Source of the DNA: Sphaerotilus sulfidivorans | Lineage (GTDB): Bacteria; Pseudomonadota; Gammaproteobacteria; Burkholderiales; Burkholderiaceae_C | Direction: 5' to 3' | DNA length: 42,822 nucleotides | Assembly (NCBI RefSeq): GCF_013426975.1 | Contig: NZ_JACCPY010000032.1 | Coordinates: 1-42,822, forward strand | In this document: one piece after another, positions 16,294-34,048 of the stretch | How positions within the stretch are numbered: the first letter of the stretch is position 1 | Layout of the letters: every line of letters starts with the position of its first letter | Notes under the pieces: generated by a model | Told to the model about the DNA's origin: nothing | What the model saw: only the letters and a program-made list of their open reading frames with translations | Database searches by the model: none | Position numbers and translations under genes: made by a program

Positions 16294-17069
16294 GCGCAAG
16301 CCTTGCGGAAGCGGTGGGTGAAGCCCGGGTCGTAGAGCTTCGACTTGACGAGGTCCGGCCAGTGGCGCGCGCCCAGCGTGGGGCTGGCGAGGACCATGGC
16401 CTGACTGACGATGCCGGCGTCGCGGCAGCGCTGCTTGATGTCGGAAAGCGTGCCGCGCACGATGCGCTCCTCGCCCGGCCAGCTGGCCTTGTGGACGACG
16501 ACGATCGGCGCGTCCTCCGGCCAGCCCGCCGCGCGCAGCCCGGCCTCGACCTTGTGCAGCAGCGTGATCGACAGGAAGATGCACAGCGTGGTGCGGTGCG
16601 CCGCCAGCGCGGCCAGGTCCTCGCCCGGCGGCATCGGCGTGCGGCCCTCGACGCGGGTGAAGATGACGCTCTGCGTGACCTCCGGCAGCGTGAAGCTCTC
16701 GACCGCCGCCGCCGCCGAGGCCATCGCCGACGACACGCCGGGCACCACGCGCACCGGCACGCCGGCGGCGTCGAGCGGCTGCACCAGCTCGATCAGCGCG
16801 CCGTAGAGCGCCGGGTCGCCCGTCTGCAGCCGCACCACCGTCTCGTGCGCGTCGGCCTGCTCGATCAGCCAGGCGGCCATCTGCGGCAGCGTCATCTCCT
16901 TGCTGTCGGCGATGACGCAGCCCGGCGGCGCCCAGCGGGTCGCGGCCTCGTTCACCAGGGAGCCGGCGAACAGGATCGCGCCGGCGCGCTCGATCAGCGC
17001 GCGGCCCTTGACGGTCAGCAGCTCCGGGTCTCCGGGGCCGGCGCCGACGAACCAGACGGTGCCGCGCAT
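16290..17069 (-). CDS. cobM: Precorrin-4/cobalt-precorrin-4 C11-methyltransferase
   Basis: CobM/CbiF adds the C11 methyl group. The 259-residue protein opens with VWFVGAGPGDPELLTVKG, the strongest signature of the family, followed by LQTGDPALYGAL and VVPGVSSAMASAAA. Length is normal. Its ATG at 17069 directly abuts the cbiM stop at 17070, and its own stop overlaps the cbiX start, so translation is coupled in both directions. In this operon the substrate is the cobalt-containing form. Confidence 0.95.
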   Translation of the reverse strand: MRGTVWFVGAGPGDPELLTVKGRALIERAGAILFAGSLVNEAATRWAPPGCVIADSKEMTLPQMAAWLIEQADAHETVVRLQTGDPALYGALIELVQPLDAAGVPVRVVPGVSSAMASAAAAVESFTLPEVTQSVIFTRVEGRTPMPPGEDLAALAAHRTTLCIFLSITLLHKVEAGLRAAGWPEDAPIVVVHKASWPGEERIVRGTLSDIKQRCRDAGIVSQAMVLASPTLGARHWPDLVKSKLYDPGFTHRFRKACA

Positions 17070-17717
17070 TCAGGCCGCCCCGGCCAGCGTCAGGCGCTCG
17101 TCCAGACAGACCCGCGCCCAGCGCTGCGAGCGCAGTGCCGCGGCGCCACGCACCAGCGCGATGGTGACCAGCGGCTCCAGCGCCACCACACCCAGATAGG
17201 ACGCCGCGAAGCGGCCCCACTCGGCCAGCGAGACCGCCTGTTCGCCGTTGGCGAGCCAGAAGCCGACCATCAGCGTGACACCGGCGTAGTAGGCGCCGTC
17301 GAGCTTGAGCAGCGCGGCCAGACCCGGCGTGCCTTCGCCCAGGCGACGGCCCAGCGTGTGGTGCACCGCCAGCAGCGGCACGATCAGCGACAGCGCATTG
17401 ACCGCCAGATGCACCAGATCCTGCGGCTCGAACAGCAGGCCCTGCATCAGCAGGCCCAGCGCGAAGCCGAAGAGGGTCGGCAGCAGGCCGAACAGCACAT
17501 AGACGGGCATCGCGCCGATGAAATGCAGCTCGGACGGTCCCACCGGCAGGTGGAAGCTCTGCATGAAGACCGAGAAGAAGACCGCCGCCAGCAGCGTGCG
17601 CAGCCACAGGGCAGGCCGGCGCCACAGCGCCGGTGCATGCGCGGCCAGCAGGCCGACGGCGGCCACATTGGCGGCCATGATCTTGGCATCGGACAGGAAG
17701 CCGGGTTCGATATGCAT
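17070..17717 (-). CDS. cbiM: CbiM-like cobalt ECF transporter membrane component
   Basis: The 215-residue protein has about six hydrophobic segments. It begins MHIEPG, so a histidine is at position 2, the metal-chelating N-terminus characteristic of CbiM/NikM substrate-specific subunits. HLPVGPSELHFIGAMP, a conserved His-containing loop, is at residues 56-71. No CbiN, CbiQ or CbiO gene is adjacent, so the energising module must come from elsewhere or the protein acts alone. A GGAG Shine-Dalgarno precedes the start. Placement between cobB and cobM under the cobalamin riboswitch supports cobalt as the substrate. Confidence 0.88.
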   Translation of the reverse strand: MHIEPGFLSDAKIMAANVAAVGLLAAHAPALWRRPALWLRTLLAAVFFSVFMQSFHLPVGPSELHFIGAMPVYVLFGLLPTLFGFALGLLMQGLLFEPQDLVHLAVNALSLIVPLLAVHHTLGRRLGEGTPGLAALLKLDGAYYAGVTLMVGFWLANGEQAVSLAEWGRFAASYLGVVALEPLVTIALVRGAAALRSQRWARVCLDERLTLAGAA

Positions 17718-17833
17718 CGTGAAATCTCCGTGGACAAGGGACAGGGAAGAAGGGGGCAGGCGCGAGCCGGCCCGGCACGGGGCCGCCAGGGCTCCGCGCG
17801 CATCAGGTCAGGCGTGTCGGGAAGGACGGGCGC

Positions 17834-19174
17834 TCAGCCGCCGGGCGGCGGCGTGGCCGGATCGAACAGCGCCGCGATCGCGCTCGGGTTCGACGGGAAG
17901 TAGAGGTGCAGGAAGGAGGCGTGCAGCCGGCCGAGGCGCCAGACGGATTCCGGCCGGCCGTGGTCACGCTCGGCCCGGGTCCGGCCGGCAGCGGGCAGCG
18001 GGCTCTCGAACTGGCCGTGGTGGAAGGTGTGGCCGCGCACCGTGCCCTCAGGCAGGTCGGCGGTGTGCATGCCGAGGTTGACCAGGCACGGCTGCATGCG
18101 GCCCTCGCCCGGCAGCAGGCCCCACATCGCGGCGCGTCGACCGGCCAGATCGCTCAGGCCATCCCCCAGCGCGAGCAGGCCGCCGCACTCGGCGACGATC
18201 GGCCGGCCGGCGGCGTGAAAGGCGCGGATCGTGTCGCGGGTGCGGCACGCCTCCTCCAGCCGCTCCAGATGCAGCTCCGGATAGCCGCCGGGCAGGTAGA
18301 GCGCATCGGCCTCGGCCGGCACCGGCTCGTCGGCCAGCGGCGAGAAGAAGACGACGCGTGCGCCGAGCTGCGCCAGCAGGTCGACATTGGCGGGGTACAG
18401 GAAGGCGAAGGCGTCGTCGCGGGCGATGGCCACCGTGCGGCCGGCCAGGCGCCGCGGCGGGGCGTCGACCTCGGCCGGCGCGATGAAGCGCACCGGTGCG
18501 GGCAGCGGCGGTGCGGCGCGCGCGACCACATCGGCTGCGCCTTCCAGCCGGCGCTCCAGGTCCGGCAGTTCGGCCGCCTGAACCAGGCCCAGGTGGCGCG
18601 AGGGCCACTCCAGCGCCTCGCAGCGCGGCAGCGCGCCGAATGCGGCCATGCCCGGCGGCAGGCTCTCGATGACCATGCGCGCATGGCCCTCGCTGCCGAC
18701 GCGGTTGGCGATCACGCCGGCAAAGTCCAGCCCCGGCCGGTACAGCTTCAGCCCGAGCGCGATCGCGCCGAAGGTCTGCGCCATCGCGCTGGCGTCGATC
18801 ACCGCCAGCACTGGCAGCCCGAGCCGCTCGGCCAGCGCCGCGCTCGAGGCGCTGCCGTCGTGCAGGCCCATCACACCCTCGACCAGGATCAGGTCGGCCT
18901 CGCCGGCGGCCTGCCAGAGCAGCTCGCGGCAGTGATCCTCGCCGCCCATCCACAGGTCGAGCTGCCGGCACGGCGCGCCGCTGGCGTGCTCGTGCACCAT
19001 CGGATCGATGAAGTCGGGGCCGGTCTTGAACACCCGCACCCGCAGGCCCTGGCGGCGCCAGTGGCGGGCCAGCGCGGCCGTCACCGTGGTCTTGCCCTGG
19101 CCGGAGGCCGGTGCGCTGACCAGCAGCGCGGGGCAGAGGCGGTCGGGCCGCCCGGAAGGAGTCTGTGTCGTCAT
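17834..19174 (-). CDS. cobB: Cobyrinate a,c-diamide synthase
   Basis: CobB/CbiA amidates the a and c side chains of (cobalt-)hydrogenobyrinate using glutamine and ATP. From ATG 19174 it is 446 residues. The N-terminal half has the P-loop SAPASGQGKTTVTAAL and the FKTGPDFIDP motif; the C-terminal class I glutaminase half has the nucleophile cysteine in ECGGLLALG and a late GHTFHHGQFE segment. The frame stays open to 19426, but that part lies in the riboswitch and is not coding. It is the first gene of the operon, with its start immediately downstream of a hairpin that could hide the ribosome-binding site. Confidence 0.95.
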   Translation of the reverse strand: MTTQTPSGRPDRLCPALLVSAPASGQGKTTVTAALARHWRRQGLRVRVFKTGPDFIDPMVHEHASGAPCRQLDLWMGGEDHCRELLWQAAGEADLILVEGVMGLHDGSASSAALAERLGLPVLAVIDASAMAQTFGAIALGLKLYRPGLDFAGVIANRVGSEGHARMVIESLPPGMAAFGALPRCEALEWPSRHLGLVQAAELPDLERRLEGAADVVARAAPPLPAPVRFIAPAEVDAPPRRLAGRTVAIARDDAFAFLYPANVDLLAQLGARVVFFSPLADEPVPAEADALYLPGGYPELHLERLEEACRTRDTIRAFHAAGRPIVAECGGLLALGDGLSDLAGRRAAMWGLLPGEGRMQPCLVNLGMHTADLPEGTVRGHTFHHGQFESPLPAAGRTRAERDHGRPESVWRLGRLHASFLHLYFPSNPSAIAALFDPATPPPGG

Positions 19175-19182
19175 GCCTGTCG

Positions 19183-19291
19183 GCCGCACGCCCCGTGCGG
19201 CTGTCGCGAGAGAATCGCTGGCGGCATCGGGCGGGGTCGGACGCAACAGGACCGGGGCCGGTCCTGCACGGGGCTGCGGCGCAGTCCCGTG
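19183..19291 (-). promoter_or_regulatory. Leader of cobB with two hairpins and a mutually exclusive pairing (riboswitch expression platform)
   Basis: Just upstream of the cobB ATG (19174) a hairpin with 8-bp perfect arms, GCCGCACG and CGTGCGGC around GGG, spans 19183-19201. Further upstream a second hairpin spans 19267-19291 with outer arms CACGGG/CCCGTG, one mismatch and inner arms CTGC/GCAG. Nine bases of the second hairpin (19266-19274, GCCCCGTGC in the RNA) are perfectly complementary to nine bases of the first (19190-19198, GCACGGGGC), so forming one long-range helix would open both hairpins. This is how an expression platform that controls translation of cobB would look. The switching logic is inferred; no T-run marks a terminator. 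Confidence 0.55.
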
Positions 19292-19328
19292 TCGTCCGGT
19301 CGCCGCCCTCCGCGGTGCCAGTGCGCAT

Positions 19329-19530
19329 GCTTCAGGCCGGTCTCCGGGCTCGCGAGCGCGGGAATCGCCCTGTCGGGCGGTCCTGCCGATCGGGTCGCCT
19401 TCCCGGAACCGCGGCTCCAGTGGCATCGTGACCTGATCTTCTCTCGCTGACCGTTGCGGGGGCAGCGCCGGCTTTTCACCGGCTTCCCGTTTAAATCCGG
19501 CCGTTCTTCACGAACCGGATCACCTGCAGC
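19329..19530 (-). promoter_or_regulatory. Cobalamin (AdoCbl) riboswitch
   Basis: Read on the minus strand, the conserved cobalamin-riboswitch elements appear in order: an AACGGGAA core with CCGGTG hairpin, GCTGCCCCCGCAAC, the GCCACTG segment, a GGGAAGGCG element and a perfect B12 box (AGCCCGGAGACCGGCC, 19335-19350). P1 can form between GCTGCAGG (19523-19530) and CCTGAAGC (19329-19336). The element lies 155 nt upstream of cobB in the sense orientation. Binding of adenosylcobalamin to this family normally lowers expression of biosynthesis and uptake genes, so the whole cob operon is probably shut down when the vitamin is plentiful. Confidence 0.96.
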
Positions 19531-19739: not shown

Positions 19740-21668
19740 ATGGCGCTGGTGACCAAGCATCGAGAGACCGTTCATGAACCCGTGGCCGCCCCGGTCGTCG
19801 CACGCGGCGTGACCCGTACGATGGCCCGCGACGCCGAGGCCGGCCGCAAGCGCGCACGCACGCTGGCCAAGCAGCAGCAGGTTGCCGAGCGGGTGGCCAG
19901 CGCATCGAGCCAGCTGTCGGCCGGCATCAACGAGGCGGCCTCCGCTTCCGAAGAGCTCAAGCGCGCGGCCGACCAGATCGCCAGCGGCGCCGAGGAAGCC
20001 TCGGGCGCAGCCCAGGAATCGCTCGCAGCGATCACCCAGGTCAGCGCTTCGATCGCCCGCCAGCTGTCCGCGGTCAACAATTCGCGAGCCAAGGCCGACA
20101 GCATGCAGGCCACCACCAGCCGCATCGATTCCGAGGTGCGCGCCACGGTGGCCAATGTCACGCTGGCGGCGCGCCGCCAGGCCGAGTCGGTGCAGCGGGT
20201 GGCCGAGCTCGAGCGCCAGGCGGCCAACATCGGCGACATCGTCAAGGCGGTGGCGCGCATCGCCGACCAGACCAATCTGCTGGCCCTGAATGCCGCGATC
20301 GAAGCCGCGCGGGCCGGTCAGCACGGCAAGGGCTTTGCGGTGGTCGCCGACGAAGTGCGCACGCTGGCCGAGACCAGCGAGAAGAGCGCCAAGCAGATCC
20401 AGGATCTGGTCGGTCAGATCCAGGGCGAGGTCAAGGCCATCGCGGCCGGCATCAACCAGTCGTCCGAGACGATCGCCGGCGAGGTCGAGAAGAGCGAACA
20501 GATCCTGCGCCAGCTCGACCGGGTGCGCCATGACGCGGCCGACATCGTGGCCGGGGCCAGCGAGATCTCCGCCGCGGCCCAGCAGGCCAGCGTGGCCTCG
20601 CAGCAGGCGCTCAAGGGCGCCGAGCAGATCGCCGCGGCGGCCGCGCAGCAGTCCTCCGCCTGCGAGGAGGCGGCCAAGACGGTCGACGAGCAGAGCGCGG
20701 CGCTGTCCGAGTGCGAGCAGACCTCGCAGAACCTGTCGGAGATCGCCGACGAGCTGAAGAACTCCTCGGACATCGGCAAGAGCGCCGAAGAAGTCGCCAG
20801 CGCCGCCGAGCAGCTCGCCGGTGCGGTGCAGGAGATCAACCGCTCGGCCGCGCAGATCATGGTGGCGCTCGACGAGATCCGCAAGGGCGCGCAGACCCAG
20901 GCCTCGGCCACCGCCGAGTCCGCCGCGGCGATCACGCAGATCGAACGCGGCGCGCAGATCGCCTCCGAGCGGGCGCAGAACGCGCGTGAGCGCTCCAGCG
21001 CGATCCGCGCCCTGATGATCGACAACAAGCAGATGATCGAGGGGCTGGTGAGCAGCATCTCGGACAGCGTGGCCTCCACCCGCACCAGCCTGCAGCAGAT
21101 CAAGGAGCTGGAGCTGGTCAGCCGCAAGATCGACAAGATCGTCGATGCCATCACCCAGGTCTCGATCCAGACCAACATGCTGGCGGTCAACGGCTCGATC
21201 GAGGCGGCGCGTGCCGGCGAGTACGGCAAGGGCTTCGTGGTGGTGGCCACCGACATCCGCAATCTCGCGCATGACTCGGCCGAGAATGCCGACCGCATCA
21301 AAGATCTGGTCAAAGGCATCCAGGACCAGATCGCCACCGTCGGCCGCGACCTGGGCGAGATCGCCACGGCCGCGCTGGCCGAGGTCGACAAGACCCGCTC
21401 GATCACCGCCAACCTGTCGGCGATGGAAGGCGATGTCGTCGAGGTCGAGAAGGGCAATGTCGAGGCGGCCGAGTCGGCCCAGGAGATCGTCTCGGCCCTG
21501 TCGCAGGTGCGCGTGGCGGTCGACCAGGTCTCCGCGGCGGCCCAGGAGTCCGAGAAGGCCGCCGAGCAGGCTTCGGCCGCGGCGCGCCAGCAGTCTCAGG
21601 GTGCCGAGGAGCTCTCCGCCGCGATCGAGGAGATCGCCTCGCTGGCCGACGAGCTGCAGAGCAACTGA
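19740..21668 (+). CDS. Soluble methyl-accepting chemotaxis protein with two signalling tips
   Basis: The 642-residue protein has no membrane segment and no recognisable sensor domain, but contains two complete receptor signalling tips. The first (about residues 172-205) reads [19 protein letters not shown] followed by [18 protein letters not shown]; the second (about 476-510) reads [19 protein letters not shown] followed by [18 protein letters not shown]. The rest is alanine/glutamate-rich coiled coil. Each tip should bind CheA/CheW, so the protein could join two signalling baseplates or two sites of one. Tandem-tip soluble receptors such as DosM of Vibrio cholerae are a known precedent. It is the first gene of the che operon, and its stop is one base from the next start. 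No CheR/CheB-tethering pentapeptide is at the C-terminus. Confidence 0.9.
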
Positions 21669-21669
21669 G

Positions 21670-23337
21670 ATGGAGGCGCTCCACACGGTCGCCGACGGCG
21701 ACGAGACGCGGGCGGCCGGGCAGACGCAGCAGTTCGTCACCTTCAGCGTCGCCGGCGAGATGTTCGCGGTGCCGATGGCGCCGGTGCAGGAGATCATCCG
21801 CGTGCCCGATGTCGCGCGCATGCCGCTGACGCCGCCGGCCCTCGAGGGGCTGGCCAATCTGCGCGGCCGGGTGCTGCCGATCATCAGCCTGCGCCGGCTG
21901 TTCGGCACGCCGGAGCGCGACAACGATGACGCCACCCGTGCGCTGGTGATCCACATCGGCCAGTCGCTGGGCTTCGTCGTCGACCGGGTGGCCAGCGTCA
22001 TCAGCGTCGATGCCAGCGAGATCGAGCCGGCGCAGGTGGTTCAGTCTGTGGTGCAGACCGATTGCCTGACCGGGGTGATCCGCCGCGAGGTGTCCGATGG
22101 TCATGGCGGCCATCGCGACCTGCTGCTGATCATCGACTTTGCCCGGCTGGTCCAGCAGCACCTCACCCGCATGATTCCGTCGCGCGAAAGCGGCGCGGTC
22201 AGCGGCTCGCGCGCGGCCGATGGCGGCGAGTCCGCCGACCGGGCCGAGCCCGGCGAGGGCAGCGGCGAGCTGCGGCTGGTGAGCTTCACGGTGGCGGCGC
22301 AGGAATATGCGCTCGACATCGCCGACGTGCAGGAGATCGTCCAGGTGCCGGAGACGATCACCGCGGTGCCCGGGGCGCCGGGCCATGTGCTCGGGCTGAT
22401 CTCGCTGCGCCGCCGGCTGCTGCCGCTGGTGAGCCTGCGCTCGCTGTTCGCGCTGGCGGATGCGGAGCTGGACGAGCATCACCGCATCGTCGTCGTGGCG
22501 CTGCCCGGCGGCGGCCAGATCGGTCTGGTCACCGACACCGTCAAGGAAGTGCTCAGCGTGCCGCGCAGCCAGGCCGACACCATGCCCGGCATCCTGACGC
22601 GCGACGCCGATCTGCAGGAGTTCTCGGCGATCTGCAGGCTCGACGGCGGCCGCCGGCTGGTCTCGATCATCGCCACCGACCGGCTGCTCGGCATGGACAG
22701 CGTGAGAGAGGCCCTGCAGCTGGGCGCCCCGGGGGTTTCCGGGTCTTCAGACCGATCCGGATCGGCCGATTCACTCTCCAGCCCGGACGCATCGATGAAC
22801 AGATCGACCCACAGCATGATTTCCCCTCCCGACGACGAGGACGCCCAGGTCGTCATCTTCCGCCTCGGCGCGGAGGAGTTCGGCGTGCCGATCATGAGCG
22901 TGCAGGAGATCGTGCGCCTGCCCGAGACGCTCACCCGCGTGCCGCGCACGCCCGAATTCGTCGAGGGCGTGATCAATCTGCGCGGCACGGTGCTGCCGGT
23001 CATCGACCAGCGTCGCCGCCTGGGCATGGACGCGATCGAGCGCAACGATCGCCAGCGCATCATGGTGTTCACGCTCGGCGGCCTGCGCACCGGCTTCATC
23101 GTCGACTCGGTGGCCGAGGTGCTGCGCATTCCGCGCCAGAACATCGCGCCGGCGCCGCAGCTCTCCGACGAGCAGATCCGCCTGATCGGCCGGGTCGCGC
23201 GGCTCGATGGCGACCGCCGCCTGGTGCTGCTGATCGATCCGACCCAGCTGCTGGCCGCGCGCGAGGTGCGTGCCATCGAGTCGCTCGAGCCTGCGGGCGA
23301 GTCCCGCACCGCCCCATCGATGGCTCGTGCCGCCTGA
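21670..23337 (+). CDS. cheW: Adaptor protein with three CheW domains
   Basis: CheW links receptors to CheA. From ATG 21670 the protein is 555 residues and has three CheW domains, roughly 18-165, 200-345 and 390-535, joined by Ser/Gly/Asp-rich linkers. Each shows the VQEI-(I/V)-(R/Q)-(V/L)-P strand. Domains 1 and 3 keep the canonical NLRG turn (NLRGRVLPI and NLRGTVLPV), but domain 2 has SLRRRLLPL instead and so may bind partners differently. Three linked adaptors could cross-link neighbouring receptor/kinase units. The start is one base after the receptor stop; the longer open frame upstream is a shadow of the receptor gene. The last CheW domain is followed by a 23-bp gap to cheB. Confidence 0.92.
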   Translation: MEALHTVADGDETRAAGQTQQFVTFSVAGEMFAVPMAPVQEIIRVPDVARMPLTPPALEGLANLRGRVLPIISLRRLFGTPERDNDDATRALVIHIGQSLGFVVDRVASVISVDASEIEPAQVVQSVVQTDCLTGVIRREVSDGHGGHRDLLLIIDFARLVQQHLTRMIPSRESGAVSGSRAADGGESADRAEPGEGSGELRLVSFTVAAQEYALDIADVQEIVQVPETITAVPGAPGHVLGLISLRRRLLPLVSLRSLFALADAELDEHHRIVVVALPGGGQIGLVTDTVKEVLSVPRSQADTMPGILTRDADLQEFSAICRLDGGRRLVSIIATDRLLGMDSVREALQLGAPGVSGSSDRSGSADSLSSPDASMNRSTHSMISPPDDEDAQVVIFRLGAEEFGVPIMSVQEIVRLPETLTRVPRTPEFVEGVINLRGTVLPVIDQRRRLGMDAIERNDRQRIMVFTLGGLRTGFIVDSVAEVLRIPRQNIAPAPQLSDEQIRLIGRVARLDGDRRLVLLIDPTQLLAAREVRAIESLEPAGESRTAPSMARAA

Positions 23338-23359
23338 TGCACAAGGAGATTGCCCGACC

Positions 23360-24487
23360 ATGCCCGGCAAGGTTCTCGTCGTCGATGATTCGGCGCTGAT
23401 GCGCCGGCTGCTCTCGGCCGTGCTGACGCAGGCCGGCTGGACGGTCGCCGCCGCCCGCAACGGGCGTGAAGGCGTGGAGCAGCTGCTCGAGTGGCAGCCC
23501 GATGTCGTCACGCTCGACATCAACATGCCCGAGATGGACGGACTGACCGCGCTGTCGCTGATGATGCAGGCGCGGCCCACTCCGATCGTCATGGTCTCGT
23601 CGCTGACCGAGAAGGGCGCGCAGGCCACGATGGAGGCGCTGGCGCTCGGTGCGGTCGACTTCATCGCCAAGCCGGGCGGCACCATCTCGCTGAGCATCGA
23701 CGACATCCAGGCGCTGCTGCTGGAGAAGGTGCGCACCGCCTCGCGCATCCGGCTGCGGCCGGGCCGACCGGCGGCCGCGATGCCCGCGCCGGTGCAGCGT
23801 GCTCCGCGCCCCGCTCTGGCACGACCCGCTCCGGCGAGTCCTCGCACGACCACGAGCGCACCGGCATCTGCATCGCCCGCTCCGCCGCGCGGTGGCATGG
23901 GCCGCTGTCCGGGCCTGGTGCTGATCGGCATTTCCACCGGCGGGCCGCGCACGCTCGAGGATGTGCTGCCGCAGCTGCCGGCCGACTTTCCCTGGCCGGT
24001 GCTGGTGGCCCAGCACATGCCGCCGAACTTCACGCTGGCCTTCGCGCAGCGCATGGACCGCATGTGCGCGCTGGAGGTGGTCGAGGTCGGCGAGCCGATG
24101 CCGCTGGAGCCCGGGCGCATCCACATCGGCCGCGGCGGCACCGATCTGGTCGTGGTCGAGCGGCTCGGGCGTCTGGTCGCACAGCCGCGGCCGGAGTCTC
24201 CCGCCCATCCCTGGCATCCGTCAGCCGACGTGATGGTCGAGAGCGCGATGCGGGTTCTTCCGGCCTCGCAGCTGGTGGGCGTGCTGATGACCGGCATGGG
24301 CTTCGACGGCGCCCGGGCGATGGCCGAGCTGAAGGCGCGCGGCGGCCGAACGATCGCCGAGGCCGAATCGAGCTGCGTCGTCTTCGGCATGCCGTCCGAG
24401 CTGATCCAGCGCGGGGGCGCCAGCGTGGTGCTGCCCAGCCAGGACGTGGCCCGGCAACTGCGCACCTGGGTGCAGCGCCTGGGCTGA
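23360..24487 (+). CDS. cheB: Chemotaxis response regulator / protein-glutamate methylesterase CheB
   Basis: CheB demethylates and deamidates receptor glutamates when phosphorylated. The 375-residue protein has a receiver domain (D9, D10, phospho-acceptor D53 in LDINMPEMD, K104), a long Ala/Pro linker (about 133-180) and a methylesterase domain with the catalytic triad S192 (GISTGGP), H219 (AQHMPP) and D316 (MTGMGFDGA). The ATG at 23360 follows AAGGAG and matches the receiver start; the frame is open further upstream within the CheW gene. All active residues are present. Its presence with CheR implies that at least one receptor of this array is methylated. Confidence 0.95.
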   Translation: MPGKVLVVDDSALMRRLLSAVLTQAGWTVAAARNGREGVEQLLEWQPDVVTLDINMPEMDGLTALSLMMQARPTPIVMVSSLTEKGAQATMEALALGAVDFIAKPGGTISLSIDDIQALLLEKVRTASRIRLRPGRPAAAMPAPVQRAPRPALARPAPASPRTTTSAPASASPAPPRGGMGRCPGLVLIGISTGGPRTLEDVLPQLPADFPWPVLVAQHMPPNFTLAFAQRMDRMCALEVVEVGEPMPLEPGRIHIGRGGTDLVVVERLGRLVAQPRPESPAHPWHPSADVMVESAMRVLPASQLVGVLMTGMGFDGARAMAELKARGGRTIAEAESSCVVFGMPSELIQRGGASVVLPSQDVARQLRTWVQRLG

Positions 24488-24533
24488 GAACCGATTCATC
24501 ACTGCCAACGACACGGGCCACAGGGGACACCGC

Positions 24534-25160
24534 ATGGGACTGAGAAAGAGCAACACGCCGGATCCGCTGCGCGAGGTCGTCGACCGCGGCTTTCCGCGCC
24601 ATGTCGACGGACTGGTCGCCCAGCTGCGCGGGGGCGATGCCGAGCAGCGCCGCTGGGCGGTGCGCGACCTGACCGGCCATCCGCAGGCTGCCGCGGCACT
24701 CGGCGCCCAGCTGCTGGTCGAGCGCGATGCGGCGGTGCGCGAGGCCATCTTCCTCGCGCTGGGCACGATGGCCAGCGACGAGGCGGTCAGCGCGCTGCTG
24801 CCGCTGCTGCGCAGCGAGGACGCCCGGCTGCGCAATGGCGCCATCGAGGTGCTGTCGGGCCTGCCCAAGGTGGTGGGGCCGCGCATCTCGGCGCTGCTGC
24901 TCGACGCCGATGTGGATGTGCGCATCTTCACCGTCAACCTGCTCGGCGAGCTGCGCCATGAGCAGGTGACGCAGTGGCTGCAGCAGGTGCTGCTGTCCGA
25001 CCGGGAGGTCAATGTCGTGGCCGCCGCCATCGAGGTCATGGCCGAGACCGGCCAGCCCGAGCACATCGACGCGCTGCGCGAGACCCGCCGGCGCTTCGCC
25101 GACGATCCCTTCATCGGCTTCGCCGCCGATGTGGCGATCGAGCGCATCCGGGCCTCATGA
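24534..25160 (+). CDS. HEAT-repeat protein of the chemosensory operon
   Basis: The 208-residue protein is built of repeated ~30-residue helical pairs with the AVR/ALG pattern (for example RRWAVRDLTGH, AVREAIFLALGTM, LRNGAIEVLSGL, VRIFTVNLLGEL, VVAAAIEVMAE), about five HEAT-like repeats in all. No catalytic motif is seen. HEAT repeats act as curved scaffolds for protein binding. The gene is embedded in the che operon and overlaps cheR by 4 bp, so a role in array assembly or in holding CheR or a receptor is likely but unproven. The Shine-Dalgarno AGGGGAC supports the start at 24534. Confidence 0.85.
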   Translation: MGLRKSNTPDPLREVVDRGFPRHVDGLVAQLRGGDAEQRRWAVRDLTGHPQAAAALGAQLLVERDAAVREAIFLALGTMASDEAVSALLPLLRSEDARLRNGAIEVLSGLPKVVGPRISALLLDADVDVRIFTVNLLGELRHEQVTQWLQQVLLSDREVNVVAAAIEVMAETGQPEHIDALRETRRRFADDPFIGFAADVAIERIRAS

Positions 25161-26065
25161 CGATGCCCGCCCCCGCGAAGGACAGGCCGATGAAAGCCGC
25201 CACCGCCCCCGCGATCGTCCCGCCGACGATCAGCGATGCGGACTTCCTGAAGTTCCGCGAATTCTTCTATCGCAAGACCGGCATCCATTTCGAGGAAAGC
25301 AAGCGCTACTTCGTCGACAAGCGCCTGATCGAGCGCATCGAGGCCACCGGGAGCGACAGCTTCCGGGCCTATTTCATCGCGCTGCGCTTCGAGGCCGACG
25401 GCCGCGAGCTGCAGCAGCTGGTCAATCTGATGACGGTCAACGAGACCTATTTCTTCCGCGAGAGCTACCAGTTCGACTGCCTGGTCAACGACATGCTCGA
25501 CGAGGTGGCGCGGCGCAAGCGCAAGGGCGGCCGAATCCGGATCTGGTCGATTCCCTCGTCGACCGGCGAGGAGCCCTACTCGATCGCGATCTACCTGCTC
25601 GAGCGCTGGCGCCACATCGACGACTACGAGGTCGAGATCCTGTCCTCCGACATCGACACCACGGTGCTGGCGGCGGCCGAGCGCGGCGTCTACTCGGCCC
25701 GATCGGTGGCCAATCTGCCCAAGCACTACCTGGACAAGTATTTCCGGCGCCTGTCCGACAACGAATACCAGATCTCGCGCGATCTGGTCGCTGCGGTCGA
25801 CTTCAGCCGCGTCAATCTCAGCGATGCGGCCGACACCCGGCGCTTTCGCGACATCGACGTGATCTTCTGCCGCAACCTGCTGATCTATTTCGACGACCTG
25901 TCGCGCCGTCTCGCCGCCGAGGCGATGTACGACGCGCTCAATCCCGGCGGATTCGTCTGCCTGGGGCACTCGGAGTCGATGAGCCGGATTTCCTCGCTCT
26001 ATGCCGTGCGCCGTTTTCCGGACGCGATGGTCTACCAGAAACCCCTTCCCGGAGAGCGCCCATGA
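25157..26065 (+). CDS. cheR: Chemoreceptor glutamate methyltransferase CheR
   Basis: CheR methylates receptor glutamates with SAM. The 302-residue protein has the N-terminal helical domain (DADFLKFREFFYRKTGIHF), the MTVNETYFFRE motif that leads into the catalytic domain, a SAM loop STGEEPYSIAIYL (preceded by WSIPS instead of the usual WSAGC/WSAAC) and the late CRNLLIYF motif. Start 25157 overlaps the HEAT gene stop by 4 bp; an ATG at 25190 is an alternative that would remove a non-conserved N-terminal extension. Its stop overlaps the next cheY start. No TPR tail is present. Confidence 0.94.
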   Translation: MTMPAPAKDRPMKAATAPAIVPPTISDADFLKFREFFYRKTGIHFEESKRYFVDKRLIERIEATGSDSFRAYFIALRFEADGRELQQLVNLMTVNETYFFRESYQFDCLVNDMLDEVARRKRKGGRIRIWSIPSSTGEEPYSIAIYLLERWRHIDDYEVEILSSDIDTTVLAAAERGVYSARSVANLPKHYLDKYFRRLSDNEYQISRDLVAAVDFSRVNLSDAADTRRFRDIDVIFCRNLLIYFDDLSRRLAAEAMYDALNPGGFVCLGHSESMSRISSLYAVRRFPDAMVYQKPLPGERP

Positions 26066-26490
26066 AGCACATTCTCGTGGTCGACGATGCCGCGACCGTG
26101 CGCATGTATCACCGCAAGATGCTCGGCGATGCCGGCTGGAGCGTCGACGAGGCCGTCAACGGACTGGAAGCCCTCGAGCGGGTGATGGCCCGTCCGGGCG
26201 GGCCGGCCTACGACCTGTATGTCGTGGATGTCAACATGCCCAAGATGGACGGCTACACGCTGGTGCGCGAGCTGCGCCGCCTGCCGCAGCTCGCCCAGGC
26301 TCCGGTGCTGATGGTCTCGACCGAGGCCCAGATGCATGATGCCGCCGCTGCCGAGGAGGCGGGCGCCAACGGCTATCTGATCAAGCCGGCGCGCCCGCGC
26401 GATCTGGTGCTGACCGCCGCGCTGCTGATGGGCGATGGCGTCACCGCCCGGCGCATCGCCGCCGGTCGCATGCAGGGAGTCAGCGCATGA
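26062..26490 (+). CDS. cheY: CheY-like response regulator (first of three)
   Basis: The 142-residue single-domain receiver has the acidic pocket D8/D9, the phospho-acceptor D56 (VVDVNMPKMDG), a conserved serine in LMVSTEA and the lysine in YLIKPARP. It carries about 20 extra residues at the C-terminus (RRIAAGRMQGVSA) compared with a minimal CheY. Its ATG overlaps the cheR stop and its stop overlaps the cheA start, each by 4 bp, so it is made together with the kinase. It is clearly different in sequence from the two later CheY proteins. Whether it acts on the flagellar motor cannot be told. Confidence 0.93.
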   Translation: MKHILVVDDAATVRMYHRKMLGDAGWSVDEAVNGLEALERVMARPGGPAYDLYVVDVNMPKMDGYTLVRELRRLPQLAQAPVLMVSTEAQMHDAAAAEEAGANGYLIKPARPRDLVLTAALLMGDGVTARRIAAGRMQGVSA

Positions 26491-28901
26491 ACTCGACCGA
26501 ACTCCTGGAGCAGTTCATCCTGGAGGCACGCGAGTGCCTCGAGTGCATCGGCCAGCGTCTGCTCGATGTCGAGAAGTCCCCTGACGACACCGAACTGCTC
26601 AACGACCTGTTCCGCCAGGTCCACACCCTCAAGGGCAACTGCGGCCTGTTCGAGTTCAAGGCGCTGGAGCGGGTGGTGCATGCCGGTGAGGATCTGCTGG
26701 ACCGGGTGCGCAACGGGGCCCTGGCCTACGGGCCGGAGATTGCAGACACGCTGCTGGAGGCGATGGACTTCACCGCCGAGCTGATCGATGCGATCGAGAC
26801 CCGGGGCGCGCTGCCGGAGCAGGCCGACGAGCGGGCCAGCCCGATCGCGCAGCGTCTGCGCCAGCATCTCAGTGCGCCTGCGGAGCCTGCTGCGCCTGCC
26901 GCAGCGACCACATCCGTGCCGGCACCGCCTCCTGAGCCCGCGCCACTCCCGGCCTGGGCCGAGCGCATTCCCGAGGCGGCTCGCCAGGCGGGGCGCATCG
27001 CGGTGCGCTACCAGCCCGAGCCCGACTGCTTCTTCAAGGGCGAGGATCCCTGGCACCACGCCCGGCTGACCCCGGGCCTGCGCCATCTCTCGGTCGCGGC
27101 CCGTCAGCCCTGGCCGGTAGCGGACGACTTCGACTGCTATGCCTGCAATCTCGATCTGGTGATCGTCAGCGACGCACCGCAGTCCGAGGTCGCGGCGCAT
27201 TTCCGCTATGTGCCCGAGCAGATCGAGCTGGTGGAGATGCCGGCCCCTGTGGCCGCCGCTCCGGTGGTGCTCGATCTGTCGGCGGTGCGCAACGAGCAGG
27301 AGGGATCGCGCGGCGTCGCAGCATCGATCGATCCGGCCGACGAGCATGAGGCGCTGATGCTCAGGCGCCTGCAGCAGATCTGGGACGACCAGTGTCGGCT
27401 GCTGGGCCGCGCCGGCGTGGCGGCGGGCACGGTGGCCGCCACCCGCGCGACGCTGCAGAACCTGCTGAGCTGCATCGACGACGAGGCGGCGCGCAGTGCG
27501 CACGCCTCGCTGGCCCAGCTGCCGCCGGGGCCGGCGCCGCTGCTGCAGTGGGCACGCCAGCATCGGCCTGGCCGTCCGGCGGCCGCACAGGCCGATCCGC
27601 AGCCGCTCACGGCGGCGGGTAGCGCATCGGACCCGGTCGCCGGCAGCCCGGCCGCCCCGATTCCTCAGCGTGGGTCGACCGGCCAGGGTGCTCAGGCTGG
27701 TGACGAACCCGGCTCGCCCGAACGCGGCCAGAAGGTGCTGAAGGTCTCGCAGGACAAGATCGACCGGCTGATGGAGCTGATCGGCGAGATGGTGGTGGCC
27801 AAGAACGCCCTGCCCTATCTGGCCACCCGCGCCGAGACGGTGTTCCAGCAGCGCGAGCTGGCCCGCGAGATCAAGGCCCAGTATTCGGTGATCAACCGCA
27901 TCGCCGAGGACATGCAGCACGCGATCATGCAGGTGCGCATGCTGCCGGTCGGGATCATCTTCCAGCGTTTCGGCCGCCTGGTGCGCGACATCGGCAAGAA
28001 GCTCGGCAAGGATGTCTCGCTGGTGGTCGAGGGCGAGGAGACCGAGGCCGACAAGAACGTCATCGAGTCGCTGGCCGATCCGCTGATCCACATCCTGCGC
28101 AACAGCCTGGACCACGGGCTGGAGACGCCCGACGTGCGCGTGGCCAGCGGCAAGCCGCCGCAGGGCGTGCTGCGTGTCGCGGCGCGCCAGGAAGGCGACC
28201 GCGTCGTGCTGACGATCAGCGACGACGGCGCCGGCATCGACACCGAGCGGGTGCGGGCCAAGGCGGTCGAGCGCGGGCTGATCCCGGCCGACCGCGCCTC
28301 CTCGCTCAGCGACGTGGAAGCGGTGCAGCTGGTCTTCCTGCCGGGATTCTCCACGGCCGAGTCGATCTCCGACCTGTCGGGACGTGGCGTCGGCATGGAC
28401 GTGGTGCGCACCGCGGTCGAGCGCATCAACGGCCAGGTCGAGCTCGAGAGCGAGCGCGGCCGCGGCACCACGGTGCGGCTGACGCTGCCGCTGTCGATGG
28501 CGGTGACCAACGTGATGATGATCGAGGCCGGCGGTCGCCACTTCGGCGTGCCGATGGATCTGATCGTCGAGACGGTGCGGGTGCCGGCCGAGGACATCCA
28601 CCATTTCAAGCGTTCGCAGACCACGGTGCTGCGCGGGCGCATCGTGCCGCTGCGCGCGCTCTCCGACATGCTGGGCATGGACCTGCCGCCTCAGCCCAAC
28701 AGCGACGGCGAGCTGGCGGTGCTGGTGGTGCGGCTCGGCAGCGAGAGCATCGGCCTGCTGGTCGACAACTTCCACGGCACCTCCGACATCATCCTCAAGC
28801 CGCTCGAGGGCGTGCTGGCGGGCATCACCGGCTTCGCCGGCACCGCGCTGATGGGCGATGGCAGCGTGCTGATGATCCTCAACCCGAAGGAGCTGGTCTG
28901 A
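26487..28901 (+). CDS. cheA: Chemotaxis histidine kinase CheA with atypical middle region
   Basis: The 804-residue kinase has an N-terminal HPt domain with the phosphorylated H46 (HTLKGN), a P3 dimerisation region (about 410-500), an ATPase domain with N-box LADPLIHILRNSLDHGLE (near 530), G1 DDGAGID and G2 GRGVGMD, and a C-terminal CheW-like P5 domain (about 665-804). Between HPt and P3, in place of a typical P2, are two modules: about residues 170-250 with YQPEPDCFFKGEDPW and DCYACNLDLVIV, and about 285-355, helical (LRRLQQIWDDQCRLLGRAG), separated by Ala/Pro linkers. A GGGAG Shine-Dalgarno precedes the start. It supplies phosphate to the receivers of the operon. Confidence 0.94.
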   Translation: MNSTELLEQFILEARECLECIGQRLLDVEKSPDDTELLNDLFRQVHTLKGNCGLFEFKALERVVHAGEDLLDRVRNGALAYGPEIADTLLEAMDFTAELIDAIETRGALPEQADERASPIAQRLRQHLSAPAEPAAPAAATTSVPAPPPEPAPLPAWAERIPEAARQAGRIAVRYQPEPDCFFKGEDPWHHARLTPGLRHLSVAARQPWPVADDFDCYACNLDLVIVSDAPQSEVAAHFRYVPEQIELVEMPAPVAAAPVVLDLSAVRNEQEGSRGVAASIDPADEHEALMLRRLQQIWDDQCRLLGRAGVAAGTVAATRATLQNLLSCIDDEAARSAHASLAQLPPGPAPLLQWARQHRPGRPAAAQADPQPLTAAGSASDPVAGSPAAPIPQRGSTGQGAQAGDEPGSPERGQKVLKVSQDKIDRLMELIGEMVVAKNALPYLATRAETVFQQRELAREIKAQYSVINRIAEDMQHAIMQVRMLPVGIIFQRFGRLVRDIGKKLGKDVSLVVEGEETEADKNVIESLADPLIHILRNSLDHGLETPDVRVASGKPPQGVLRVAARQEGDRVVLTISDDGAGIDTERVRAKAVERGLIPADRASSLSDVEAVQLVFLPGFSTAESISDLSGRGVGMDVVRTAVERINGQVELESERGRGTTVRLTLPLSMAVTNVMMIEAGGRHFGVPMDLIVETVRVPAEDIHHFKRSQTTVLRGRIVPLRALSDMLGMDLPPQPNSDGELAVLVVRLGSESIGLLVDNFHGTSDIILKPLEGVLAGITGFAGTALMGDGSVLMILNPKELV

Positions 28902-29137
28902 TGGGCATCCGATACCTGAAGAAATCCGTCACGCTGCAGGGCCGGATCAGCGCCGAGGAAGCGGAAGAGCTGCAGCAGTGGCTCAAGTCGCAGCCCCGGG
29001 CGGCCGTCAATGTGGGCAAGTGCGAGCACATGCACGCCGCGGTGCTGCAGGTGCTGCTTGCCCTGCGACCTCGTGTGACAGGCATGCCGGCCGATCCCTG
29101 GCTCCAGGCGGCCCTGGCGCCGCAGGCTTCGTCATGA
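28901..29137 (+). CDS. Small STAS-like (anti-sigma-factor-antagonist-like) protein
   Basis: The 78-residue protein looks like a minimal STAS fold: a strand VTLQGRISAEEAEEL, a helix, a hydrophobic strand AAVNVGKCEHMHAAVLQVLLAL where the switch serine would normally sit near the end of the second strand, and a short tail. No obvious phosphorylatable serine is at the expected DSSG-like position; the sequence there is CEHMHAA. The ATG overlaps the cheA stop by one base (TGATG) and AAGGAG lies eight bases upstream, so it is a real, coupled gene. Short STAS-like proteins are found in some cytoplasmic-array che operons. Its partner is unknown. Confidence 0.72.
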   Translation: MGIRYLKKSVTLQGRISAEEAEELQQWLKSQPRAAVNVGKCEHMHAAVLQVLLALRPRVTGMPADPWLQAALAPQASS

Positions 29138-29204
29138 AGCGGCGGCCACCCCAGCCGCTGCCGTGCCAGCCCGACTTTCTCCATGAACTGCAGGGGGCTC
29201 CCCG

Positions 29205-29570
29205 ATGAAACACGTCTTTCTGGTCGACGACTCCGCGACGATGCTGATGAGCCTGAAGGGCACGCTGGAGATGAGCGGCTTCAAGGTCGACACCGCCGGA
29301 GACGGCCAGGCGGCGCTGGACCGGCTCAAGACCGGTCTGAAGCCCGACCTGATCATCACCGACATCAACATGCCGCGCATGGACGGCATCCAGCTGATCC
29401 GCGAGGCGCGCAAGCTGCTGCGCTTCACCCCGATCCTGGCACTGACCACCGAGAGCCAGCAGGGCAAGCGCGACGAGGCCAAGAAGAACGGCGCCACCGG
29501 CTGGCTGGTCAAGCCGGTCGGCGGCTCCGATCTGGTCAAGGTCATCAAGCAGGTGCTGCCCGGAGCCTGA
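29205..29570 (+). CDS. CheY-like response regulator (second of three)
   Basis: The 121-residue receiver has D8/D9, phospho-acceptor D53 ([11 protein letters not shown]), T81/T82 and the lysine in GWLVKPVGG. It is about 60% identical by eye to the third receiver (30951-31334) and shares the unbroken run [15 protein letters not shown] with it, while both differ from the first. It lies between the STAS-like gene and the second receptor-like gene, with 67- and 70-bp gaps. The two paralogues flanking that receptor suggest a gene duplication. One of the set could be a phosphate sink, a common role when several CheY proteins share one CheA. Confidence 0.93.
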
Positions 29571-29640
29571 TCCTGAGCATTCTCCCTCGCCTTTTCCCAT
29601 GCCGCATCAGGCAGGCAGCGGCAGCACGCACGAGCACATC

Positions 29641-30915
29641 ATGAACCAGAGAACGGACACGACCTCGCATGTCGCCGCATCGCCGGCATGGCGCCGCCTG
29701 AACGCTCGCCATGCGGTGCTGGGCAGCCTGGGGCTGCTGACCGTCGCGGTGCATCTGGCCTGGCCCGAGCTGGTCGGCACCGGCACCGCGGGCGCGCTGA
29801 TCGGCGGCCTGGGCGCCGGCCATGCCCTGGGCCGCTGGCAGGGGCCCAGCGGTCGGGTCCGCCAGGACCGTGCTGCCGACGTGATCGCGCAGGACATCGG
29901 AACGCTGCGCCAGGCCTTCGGCATTCTCGAGGCCCAGGTCAAGGCGACCATCAAGACCTCGGAAGATGCGGTCATGTCGATGATGGAGCGCATGCAGCGG
30001 GTGCATGCCACGGTCATCCAGCTGCATGAGCGGGTCGACCAGGCGGTAGGCCGATCGCACAGCCTCTCGGCGGAGACCCTGTCGCGGGCGGGCCAGCACA
30101 CCGCTGCGGTCAGTTCGCTGGCCGAGCACCAGAAGGCCTTCGAGCAGGGGCGCGACGAGAGCGTGCTGCGTGTGCGGGCGGTGGCCGATCAGGTCCGTGC
30201 GCTCACGCCGCTGGCCGAGCTGATCTCCAACATCTCGCGCCAGACCAATCTGCTGGCGATCAATGCGTCGATCGAGGCCGCGCGTGCCGGTCAGGAAGGC
30301 GCCGGCTTCAAGGTGGTGGCGGCCGAGGTGCGCAATCTCTCCACCCAGACCGCCGAGGCGGCGCAGAAGATCACCGAGGGCATCGCGCATGCGGCCGAGC
30401 AGATCGATCTGCAGTCGTCCGCACGCTCTGCCGGCAGCGACCGAGGAGCGTCGTCCAGCACGGCCGAGCAGCTCGACGAGATCGCCAGCCACATCGAGAC
30501 GATGAGCCGCACCCTCGGCGATGTCGTGCCCTACCTGGGCGATCTCTCCTCCAGCATGGACAGCACCATTCGTGCGATGACCCAGGACGTGATCGACACG
30601 CTGGGCGACATGCAGTTCCAGGACATCAACCGCCAGATGCTCGAGCAGGTCAACATGGCGCTGGTGGGCATGTCGGAGCATTTCTCCCAGCTCTACGAGC
30701 TGCTCGACGGCGATGCGCCGCCGCCGCCCGTTCAGCTCGAGCACCTGATCACCCGCTGGAGCGAGAACTACGTGATGCACAGCCAGCGCAAGGCCCACGC
30801 CCAGGCCACGGGCGGTGCCGGTTCGACCGGCTCATCAGGCTCGGCACCGGTCCGGCCACAGCCCGAGCTGGCTGCGGTCAGCGAGCCGGCCGGACCCAAG
30901 ATCGAGCTGTTCTGA
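29641..30915 (+). CDS. Receptor-like signalling protein with short membrane anchor and CheZ-like QDxxxQ motif
   Basis: From ATG 29641 the protein is 424 residues. A short hydrophobic region (about residues 25-60, glycine-rich) could be one or two membrane segments. The signalling tip near residue 200-235 reads [20 protein letters not shown], then [17 protein letters not shown], with A in place of the usual K of GKGF. Past the tip there is no long methylation helix; instead, at residues 325-332, comes QFQDINRQ, which matches the CheZ active-site pattern (D-x3-Q, here D328 and Q332). A proline- and glycine-rich tail ends the protein. It may therefore both join the array and dephosphorylate a CheY. 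An ATG at 29599 is an alternative start; neither has a clear Shine-Dalgarno. Confidence 0.82.
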
Positions 30916-30950
30916 TCCTGAATCCTGAAGTCCGAAGTCTGGAGGAGACG

Positions 30951-31334
30951 ATGCAAACCATCCTGGTGGTGGAGGATTCGGCGACGATGCGCCAGAGTCT
31001 CCAGAACACGCTCGAGATCAGCGGCTACGCGGTCGTGCTGGCGCCGGAGGGGCAGACGGCACTGGCGCGGCTGCAGTCCGGGCTGCGCCCGGACCTGATC
31101 ATCACCGACATCAACATGCCGTGCATGGACGGCATTTCCTTCATCGCCGAGGCGCGCAAGCTGCTGCGCTTCACGCCGATCCTGGCGCTGACGACACGCG
31201 ACCAGCAGGCCAAGCGCGATCAGGCCAAGAACATCGGTGCCACCGGCTGGCTGATCAAGCCGGTCGGGGGCAGCGAGCTGATCCGGCTGATCAAGCCCTT
31301 GCTGCCCCCGCAGAATCCGTCCGGCCGGCCCTGA
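30951..31334 (+). CDS. CheY-like response regulator (third of three)
   Basis: The 127-residue receiver has E8/D9, phospho-acceptor D53 (ITDINMPCMDG), T81/T82 and the lysine in GWLIKPVGG. A strong GGAGGAG Shine-Dalgarno precedes the ATG. It is a paralogue of the receiver at 29205-29570 and is the last gene of the che operon; its stop codon directly abuts the stop of the convergent inositol permease gene (31335). No terminator fits between them, so transcripts may run into the antisense of the next gene. Confidence 0.93.
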   Translation: MQTILVVEDSATMRQSLQNTLEISGYAVVLAPEGQTALARLQSGLRPDLIITDINMPCMDGISFIAEARKLLRFTPILALTTRDQQAKRDQAKNIGATGWLIKPVGGSELIRLIKPLLPPQNPSGRP

Positions 31335-32425: not shown

Positions 32426-33961
32426 TCAGCGCGAGGCCAGGTCCATGATGGTCACCTGATCGGCCTGGGCCCGGTCGACGATGCCGGTCATGCGGCCCTC
32501 GTGCATGACCATGACCCGGTCGCTCATGCCGAGCACCTCGGGCATTTCCGAGGAAATCATCAGCACCGCGACGCCCTCGCCGGCGAGCCTGCTCACCAGG
32601 CGGTGGATCTCGGCCTTGGCGCCGACGTCGATGCCTCGGGTCGGCTCGTCGAGGATCAGGATCTTCGGACGGGTCAGCAGCCAGCGGCCGATCAGCACCT
32701 TCTGCTGGTTGCCGCCGGAGAGGTTCTGGATGACCTCCTGCAGGTCCGGTGTCTTGACGCGCAGCGTGCGGCTCATCTCCTCGCAGTCGCGCCTGAGCTG
32801 CGCCTCCTGCACGAAGCCGAACCTGACATGGCGGTCCTGCAGCACCGCCGTCTCCATGTTGGAGAGGATGTCCAGGATCAGGAAGCAGCCGGTGTCCTTG
32901 CGGTCTTCGGTCAGGAAGGCCATGCCGTGCTTCATCGCGGCGGCGGGCGAGTCGATCTTCACCGTCCGGCCACGGATCGCGATCGTGCCGCCGGTGGCAG
33001 GCACCACGCCGAACAGCGCCTCGGCCACGTTGGAGCGCCCCGAGCCGACCAGGCCCGCCAGGCCCAGGATCTCGCCGGCGCGCAGGTCGAAGCTCACGCC
33101 CTCGAAGAGACCGTCGACCTTCAGGTCCTTGACCGACAGCACCACATCGCCGATCGGCACCTCTTCCTTGGGGAACATCTGCGTGATCTCGCGCCCGACC
33201 ATCATGCGGATGATGTCGTCGCGGGTCACGTCCTTCGAGGCGTGCGTGCCGATGTACTTGCCGTCGCGGAACACCGAGAACTCGTCGGCGATCTCGAACA
33301 GCTCGTTCATCTTGTGGGTGATGTAGACGATGCCCTTGCCCTGGCTGCGCAGCTGCCGAATGATGCGGAACAGGTGGGCGACCTCCTTGTCGGTCAGCGC
33401 CGAGGTCGGCTCGTCCATGATGAGGACGTCCGAGTCGAAGGACACCGCCTTGGCGATCTCCACCATCTGGCGGCTGGCGATCGACAGGCTCTGGATCTCG
33501 GTCTCGGGATCGAGATCGATGGCCAGGCGGTCGAACAGCGCCTGGGTGCGCCGGCGCATCTCGGCGTGGTCGACCAGGCCGAGGCGGCTCTTCGGCTCGC
33601 GGCGGATCCAGATGTTCTCCGCGATCGTCATGAAGGGCATCAGGTTGAGTTCCTGATGGATCATCGCGATGCCGCGGTCGAGCGCATCGAGCGGGCCGCT
33701 CAGCGCGACCGGCTGGCCCTTGATGCGGATCTCGCCCTGATCGGGCATGTAGACGCCGGCGATGATCTTCATCAGCGTCGACTTGCCCGCGCCGTTCTCG
33801 CCCATCAGCGCGTGAACCGTGCCGGCACGCAGGCTGAACTGCACATTGTCGAGCGCGACCACGCCCGGAAAGGCCTTGCGGATGCCCTGGATCGCCAGCA
33901 GCGGCGGCGCGGCGGAGGAGGCGGCCGCATCGGGCCGCTCGACGGTGGCGGTGTCGGACAT
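32426..33961 (-). CDS. Sugar/inositol ABC transporter ATP-binding protein (RbsA family, double ATPase)
   Basis: The 511-residue protein has two ABC domains. The first (about 20-250) has Walker [10 protein letters not shown], signature LSIASRQ and Walker [14 protein letters not shown]. The second (about 270-505) has a degenerate Walker A (GLVGSGRSN), the intact signature LSGGNQQKV and Walker [15 protein letters not shown]. Strong first and weaker second nucleotide sites are typical of RbsA/IatA-type ATPases. It is the middle gene of the importer operon, 87 bp after the binding protein and 65 bp before the permease. Inositol as substrate is inferred from context. Confidence 0.93.
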
Positions 33962-34048
33962 CGGGGGTCTCGCGGGGTTCGGGTCGGTGGGGAGGAGAAA
34001 GCTCGGCGGGCGGCACGCCGGCCGCCCGTGATCAGCGCACCGGCGCGA

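Follow-up and report, generated by a model that had tools for sequence, protein, structure and literature searches.

The window analyzed here, a 42,822-nucleotide stretch of Sphaerotilus sulfidivorans DNA (NZ_JACCPY010000032.1), makes up one complete contig of a draft genome of 4.39 Mb and carries a chemosensory operon of eleven genes at positions 19740-31334. This operon encodes a class F9 system whose last receptor-like protein, termed MCPZ here, is probably a receptor-coupled CheY phosphatase. MCPZ combines a chemoreceptor signaling domain with a C-terminal module resembling CheZ, and it most likely serves the CheY encoded directly beside it (CheY2) as phosphatase, an activity that we infer from the sequence of the module. 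The features that matter for this reading are the following.

29205..29570, + strand: CheY2 (Pfam), the presumed substrate of the phosphatase module
29599..30915, + strand: MCPZ, receptor-like protein with CheZ-like module, 438 amino acids (aa); MCPsignal match at residues 182-329; alignment A3
29683..29838, + strand: predicted N-terminal helices, residues 29-80, a possible membrane anchor (AlphaFold; maximum hydropathy 1.45, weak)
30496..30693, + strand: CheZ-like helix region, about residues 300-365 (hhalign against CheZ; profile test)
30613..30636, + strand: QFQDINRQ, residues 339-346, with putative catalytic residues D342 and Q346 (aligned rows; BLAST-picked proteins)
30901..30912, + strand: C-terminal IELF tail, residues 435-438, a putative CheY-docking peptide (tail conservation)

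Conservation of the MCPZ motif and tail beside CheY

CheZ has been described as a four-helix-bundle hairpin bearing the phosphatase motif DXXXQ, with a linker and then a CheY-binding region at the C-terminus; the motif is preceded by AXXFQ, with Tyr replacing Phe in epsilon-proteobacteria (PMC7750401). The layout of MCPZ is comparable, with the MCPsignal domain followed by QFQDINRQ, a linker, and a C-terminus reading PKIELF, and its FQDINRQ fits the CheZ core [FY]QDxxxQ. We take D143 and Q147 of Escherichia coli CheZ to be the counterparts of D342 and Q346.

Conservation was assessed in overlapping samples that differ in how their members were chosen. In 61 proteins selected downstream of CheA through BLAST matches to the two receptors of the window, without use of the motif, the motif pattern was present in 59, the other two reading QVQDVTRQ (L029) and QGQDVMRQ (L030), and the D and Q were present in all 61. 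A C-terminus of the form xELF was found in 58 of these proteins; the rest comprised one FQLF and two sequences cut by contig ends. In a separate screen of CheY2 neighbors, 87 loci were considered, of which 6 lacked CheA and 14 lacked a scored CheY2. With the motif or the tail as criterion, the CheY2 neighbor carried one or the other in 62 of the 67 loci left. Two of the 14 loci set aside for want of a scored CheY2 (L036 and L054) do carry the module.

Alignment A3 comprises 62 rows that were partly chosen by motif or tail. Its sole invariant columns are Q339, D342, and Q346 (62/62), while the receptor-tip residues are nearly invariant, and position 340 is F or Y in 57 rows. The tails end in xELF in 58 of the 62 rows (IELF, 48; FELF, 5; VELF, 2; LELF, 1; AELF, 1; MELF, 1), and the other four are FQLF, ELF with extra residues (L064), and two sequences truncated where the contig stops (L077 and L101).

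Judging from open reading frames, the CheZ-like module is separable from the chemoreceptor domain. At three loci (L060, L064, and L099), the products of the open frames adjoining CheY2 (303, 253, and 191 residues, respectively) have no MCPsignal match but keep the D, the Q, and the ELF tail. Since motif or tail was the selection criterion, these three demonstrate the existence of receptor-less forms and not their frequency. Furthermore, a second CheY-MCPZ pair lies outside the F9 operon in the same genome (contig C121, about 125687-126920, minus strand; L156). Its CheY is 81% identical to CheY2 and is followed by an MCPZ relative with FQDINRQ, IELF, and, by eye, no evident membrane segment; no CheR match was found in the 16 kb surrounding the pair. 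In a genus-mate (L201), the MCPZ copy is 57% identical overall to that of the window, and the 20 residues around the motif are identical. A second, adjoining copy there carries QYHDVFKQ and ends in HIELF; two receptor-phosphatase copies were seen in some F9 operons (L201 and L202).

Some profile hits in other genomes show the same module in clusters of F7 type. Three of these (L205 to L207) share the order receptor, CheY, CheA, CheW, receptor ending in DWEEF, CheR, and CheB; in L205, a CheD-like gene was flagged as well. Their first receptor carries ALQFQDMSSQ and a GEVELF tail and is encoded directly beside CheY. In four further clusters (L195, L196, L200, and L208), the protein beside CheY carries FQDR(T/V)SQ and has a tail ending in TFF. 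McpA-like receptors of F7 systems have been reported to be dispensable for the array and to carry a highly conserved C-terminus whose role is unclear, and the C-terminal pentapeptide of Pseudomonas aeruginosa McpA has a valine at its second position (PMC7184735). The EVELF tail fits this published description. According to the same paper, cheZ was likewise included in F6 systems only (PMC7184735). In another chemosensory cluster (L198), with a CheW and a 1086-aa CheA-like frame, a short receptor (6128-7198) carries LQFEDMVTQ and a DEGEIELF tail.

Profile and structural comparison with CheZ

Profile A4, which covers the C-terminal region of the F9 proteins and was built from 41 of the 62 A3 rows, was compared with 28 CheZ proteins taken from loci that PF04344 had located independently. 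These were required to contain [FY][QH]D[LI][TS]GQ, and one protein is included twice (L141 and L152). Twenty of the 28 were matched by the A4-type profile at E<=0.01 and all 28 at E<=10, and the motif was in register in both of the alignments that were printed across it. As controls, 23 receptor frames of this genome were picked by tip pattern near MCPsignal matches, a set that includes DosM and one probably spurious frame. At E<=0.01, the profile matched 1 of these 23, none of 560 shuffled CheZ sequences, and none of 250 shuffled receptors; likewise, none of 25 reversed receptors or 28 reversed CheZ proteins was matched. Of the narrower profiles, one of 13 betaproteobacterial rows matched 11 of the 28 CheZ proteins (and one control receptor) and one of 14 mainly gammaproteobacterial rows matched 9. 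In an hhalign comparison with CheZ based on 59 of the 61 BLAST-picked proteins, the score was 41.1 (P 6.7e-6; probability, 84.7), compared to 17.0, 25.4, and 23.5 for three controls. The similarity to CheZ thus exceeded the controls in both the profile search and hhalign. Run over 299 genomes, the F9 profile matched 96 at E<=1e-4, and three of its matches were places that PF04344 had called CheZ (G047:C6, G016:C1, and G028:C1).

The control receptor matched by the F9 profile (contig C79, 184559-185185; L006) is encoded directly before another CheA and has a degenerate motif, QSHDRFTQ, with a VEFF tail; it may be a module that has decayed or diverged. Another receptor of this genome (contig C111; L119) also ends in VEFF and lacks the motif.

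The AlphaFold model of MCPZ, computed with 62 sequences (mean pLDDT, 80; pTM, 0.51), consists of N-terminal helices at residues 29-53 and 64-80 and one long hairpin (84-229/231-369). The motif is placed towards the hairpin base, and the C-terminal stretch is of low confidence and has no regular structure. A membrane segment scores clearly in 41 of the 62 aligned rows, a number that is too low because long N-termini had been cut back, and weakly in the window protein. From the tip glutamate to the motif D, the median distance is 113 residues (48 rows), and from the motif to the C-terminus it is 74 residues in the MCPZ family, compared to 75 in CheZ.

Several results weigh against reading MCPZ as a CheZ-type phosphatase. 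PF04344 misses the window protein both in a genome search at E<=10 (14 candidates) and in a protein scan at E<=1, and the Pfam CheZ model matches just 14 of the 62 A3 members at E<=1, the best at a weak 1.7e-4. Because the window protein fails the PF04344 curated cut-off, we describe the module as CheZ-like and not as a member of the Pfam CheZ family. A three-row actinobacterial profile matched 0 of the 28 CheZ proteins at E<=0.01, and the full and betaproteobacterial profiles each also match one other receptor of this genome. A search of PDB sequences with A4 was led by unrelated coiled coils (viral spike fragments), with CheZ (1kmi) sixteenth at an E value of 0.051. Likewise, structure comparison, with 656 of 786 chains aligned, listed chemoreceptors first and no CheZ among the 50 matches listed. 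The tails of CheZ proteins are DDLLxSLGF or DIDALF-like and not ELF; as they differ in sequence, a docking role of the ELF tail is suggested by analogy. At the locus level, L043, L081, L083, and L104 have a CheY2-like gene without a motif- or tail-bearing neighbor; the fifth of the 67 screened loci counted as lacking one, L070, ends 352 bases past CheY2. Finally, the three receptor-less proteins were themselves found through motif or tail.

Class F9 membership and gene order of the operon

Judged by gene content, the operon is a member of the established class F9 and not a new system. A DosM receptor with tandem signaling domains together with a concatenated triple CheW has been reported as unique to class F9, which was complete in 64 of 2,781 species (PMC9321776). 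The same pair occurs in Vibrio cholerae cluster I, which forms double-layered cytoplasmic arrays of unknown function (PMC7534058). In the window, DosM has two MCPsignal stretches and CheW3 three CheW stretches, and cheA, cheB, cheR, and cheY are clustered with them; the assignment follows because DosM and the triple CheW are the published F9 signature and both are present. A novel operon class was therefore rejected, as this pair already defines F9 in print. From this signature, the array of the operon is best predicted to be double-layered and cytoplasmic. The other operon genes are as follows.

19740..21668, + strand: DosM-type soluble receptor, 642 aa, two tandem MCP signaling domains (Pfam, two MCPsignal stretches)
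21670..23337, + strand: CheW3, 555 aa, three CheW domains (Pfam, three stretches; alignment A1)
23360..24487, + strand: CheB, receiver and methylesterase (Pfam, NCBIfam)
24534..25160, + strand: HEAT-repeat protein, 208 aa (HEAT_2, E 2.3e-22)
25157..26065, + strand: CheR methyltransferase (Pfam)
26062..26490, + strand: CheY1 (Pfam; conserved positions)
26487..28901, + strand: CheA histidine kinase, 804 aa (Pfam Hpt, H-kinase_dim, HATPase_c, CheW)
28901..29137, + strand: STAS-like protein, 78 aa (weak STAS_2 match, E 3e-4, under the curated cut-off)
30951..31334, + strand: CheY3, a CheY2 paralogue (80 identical residues in the aligned 121- and 127-aa proteins)

The eleven codirectional genes fill the region with intergenic gaps of -4 to +67 bases. 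The DosM-type receptor has no membrane segment (maximum 19-residue hydropathy, 1.1) and shares 36 to 81% identity with its relatives in F9 loci across most of its length. An earlier note on this DNA, made from the sequence alone, had listed the same eleven genes, a content confirmed by the open reading frame coordinates and Pfam, and had rightly compared the two-tip receptor with DosM of V. cholerae. Its description of the operon as noncanonical does not hold for an established class, and its statement that CheZ is absent was misleading, as the last receptor-like gene encodes the CheZ-like module. No match to a flagellar or CheD family was found by Pfam among the eleven operon proteins.

Gene order was compared across 71 loci holding DosM, CheA, and more than 4.5 kb past the CheA start. 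The window is included, two loci (L022 and L090) are the same contig, and other near-identical rows were kept. CheB, CheR, and CheY1 were each found in all 71 loci, HEAT in 69 (both HEAT-less loci being the same contig), and STAS and CheY2 in 66 each. One common order of the genes found, recurring in Proteobacteria and in Actinoplanes-type actinobacteria, was observed in 70 of the 71, the exception being L098, a contig starting inside CheW3. This conservation of the gene set is far beyond chance. In L018, L019, and the Alteromonas locus L103, an extra ~0.7 kb lies between STAS and CheY2, and L046 has a CheW-like frame there.

With CheW3 as query and the window's own genome counted, 9 of the 398 genomes searched in the phylum had a match at E<=1e-40, and 6 of 120 from the family had one at E<=1e-100. 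Among the best 80 of 530 relatives in a scan of named genomes, the closest belong to Burkholderiales and other betaproteobacteria (Aquabacterium, Leptothrix, Rubrivivax, and Pelomonas); others come from Chromatiaceae, Methylococcales, Methylobacterium, Sphingomonas, and Alteromonas, and eight loci are from Actinoplanes-type actinobacteria. A search of plasmids with the Alteromonas protein gave no match.

The genome as a whole has four CheA-type dimerization domains, one FliM, and two CheZ genes, the CheZ genes being on other contigs. A flagellar motor and CheZ are thus encoded elsewhere. A nonmotility output of the operon would fit both the presence of FliM, CheZ, and further CheA genes elsewhere in this genome and the literature, in which the function of F9 is unknown.

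The operon is flanked upstream by corrin/tetrapyrrole genes (16290-19426 region) and downstream by a sugar-type ABC transporter (32426-35101, minus strand), and no link to either was seen. An ordinary chemoreceptor gene without the motif or the ELF tail lies near the contig end (41036-42616, minus strand).

Alternative explanations, proposed mechanism, and known systems

It is rather improbable that MCPZ is an ordinary minor chemoreceptor whose QFQD..RQ helix and ELF tail have a structural role or tether CheR or CheB. An MCP signaling domain is indeed present in 59 of the 62 A3 rows, and other receptors are known to tether CheR through C-terminal peptides, as described in connection with Aer2 (PMC7184735). 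However, A3 shows stricter invariance of the D and Q than of the receptor tip, CheY2 neighbors without a recognizable receptor domain carry both motif and tail, and two profile tests tie the helix to CheZ. A CheR tether as the role of the ELF tail is disfavored in its own right, since the C121 pair has the tail without a nearby CheR match and since a valine in the McpA tail is reported to block binding to the CheR homologues (PMC7184735). A different view accepts that the module binds CheY and supposes that catalysis was lost or changed, leaving a phosphate-dependent CheY sink or a localization device. The retention of D and Q in all BLAST-picked proteins, which would be expected more for catalysis than for docking alone, makes this unlikely, even though residues beside and in the CheZ motif affect CheZ localization (PMC7750401) and residue 345, directly before the second Q, is mostly R in MCPZ proteins and G in the CheZ proteins examined.

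For the HEAT, STAS-like, and tri-CheW proteins, a role as architectural array parts, suggested in the earlier note, is a tentative possibility. The triple CheW has been described as a component of F9 base plates (PMC7534058), and HEAT and STAS are near-universal in the F9 operons examined, whereas the STAS_2 similarity itself is weak. Six positions of the HEAT protein (R41, R102, R132, N162, V163, and R189, in a numbering two ahead of the protein's own) scored 1.0 across 81 rows, and the protein likely has a partner. In alignment A5 of the STAS-like proteins, for which 34 of the 71 rows were used, L24, Q50, and P63 show no variation, and H45 and A47 show almost none.

If MCPZ is a receptor-coupled phosphatase, the system could work as follows. 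As expected from work on the F9 array of V. cholerae, DosM and CheW3 would build a double-layered cytoplasmic array with CheA. CheR and CheB would adjust the receptors, and CheA would phosphorylate the CheY proteins, as is usual for these families. The chemoreceptor tip of MCPZ may position the protein at the array or other receptors, or read them, while the C-terminal ELF tail would dock the CheY encoded by the neighboring gene. D342 and Q346, which sit on the helix that follows the signaling hairpin tip, would then speed CheY-phosphate hydrolysis, as their homology to CheZ suggests. Extending this proposal, we slightly favor the view that membrane "receptors" of the VC1394 and McpA types are primarily array-coupled CheY phosphatases, each serving its adjoining CheY.

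The literature searches made pointed to no prior description of a fusion between a receptor and CheZ or of HEAT proteins in F9, nor to a receptor-phosphatase reading of a conserved F9 component; the operon class itself is known. If the reading is correct, a receptor tip that controls the kinase and an enzyme that undoes the kinase's work coexist in one protein. A CheZ-type module could explain how signals end in F9-type systems, and receptor-phosphatases would be the missing signal-termination parts of F9 and ancestral F7. The built-in module would complete the signaling cycle of both classes and point to the neighboring CheY as the output. It would also explain why the McpA C-terminus, whose role is unclear, is conserved and why McpA is dispensable for the array, turning the puzzle of this conservation into a simple biochemical test.

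With V. cholerae cluster I, the operon shares the two-tip DosM, the triple CheW, and its own set of CheA, CheB, CheR, and CheY. Both also have a terminal receptor, for which a membrane segment is predicted in most relatives. Compared by description, the terminal receptor VC1394 of V. cholerae is a 24H receptor with a transmembrane region, whereas the protein found here carries a CheZ-like module. The same motif and an EVELF tail beside CheY, in the F7-layout clusters L205 to L207, suggest a link between MCPZ and the McpA-like F7 receptors (PA0180 and VCA1088); the McpA identity of the genes in these clusters is presumed from gene order and the published note on the valine at the second tail position. 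In contrast to the operon described here, McpA-like receptors belong to the F7 array class, with an Aer2-like receptor. With CheZ itself (PF04344), MCPZ shares the [FY]QDxxxQ core, a similar motif-to-C-terminus length, and an acidic-hydrophobic C-terminal peptide, and it has a predicted long helical hairpin as well, but unlike in CheZ, the module is joined to a chemoreceptor tip, in many cases together with a membrane segment, and ends in an ELF tail.

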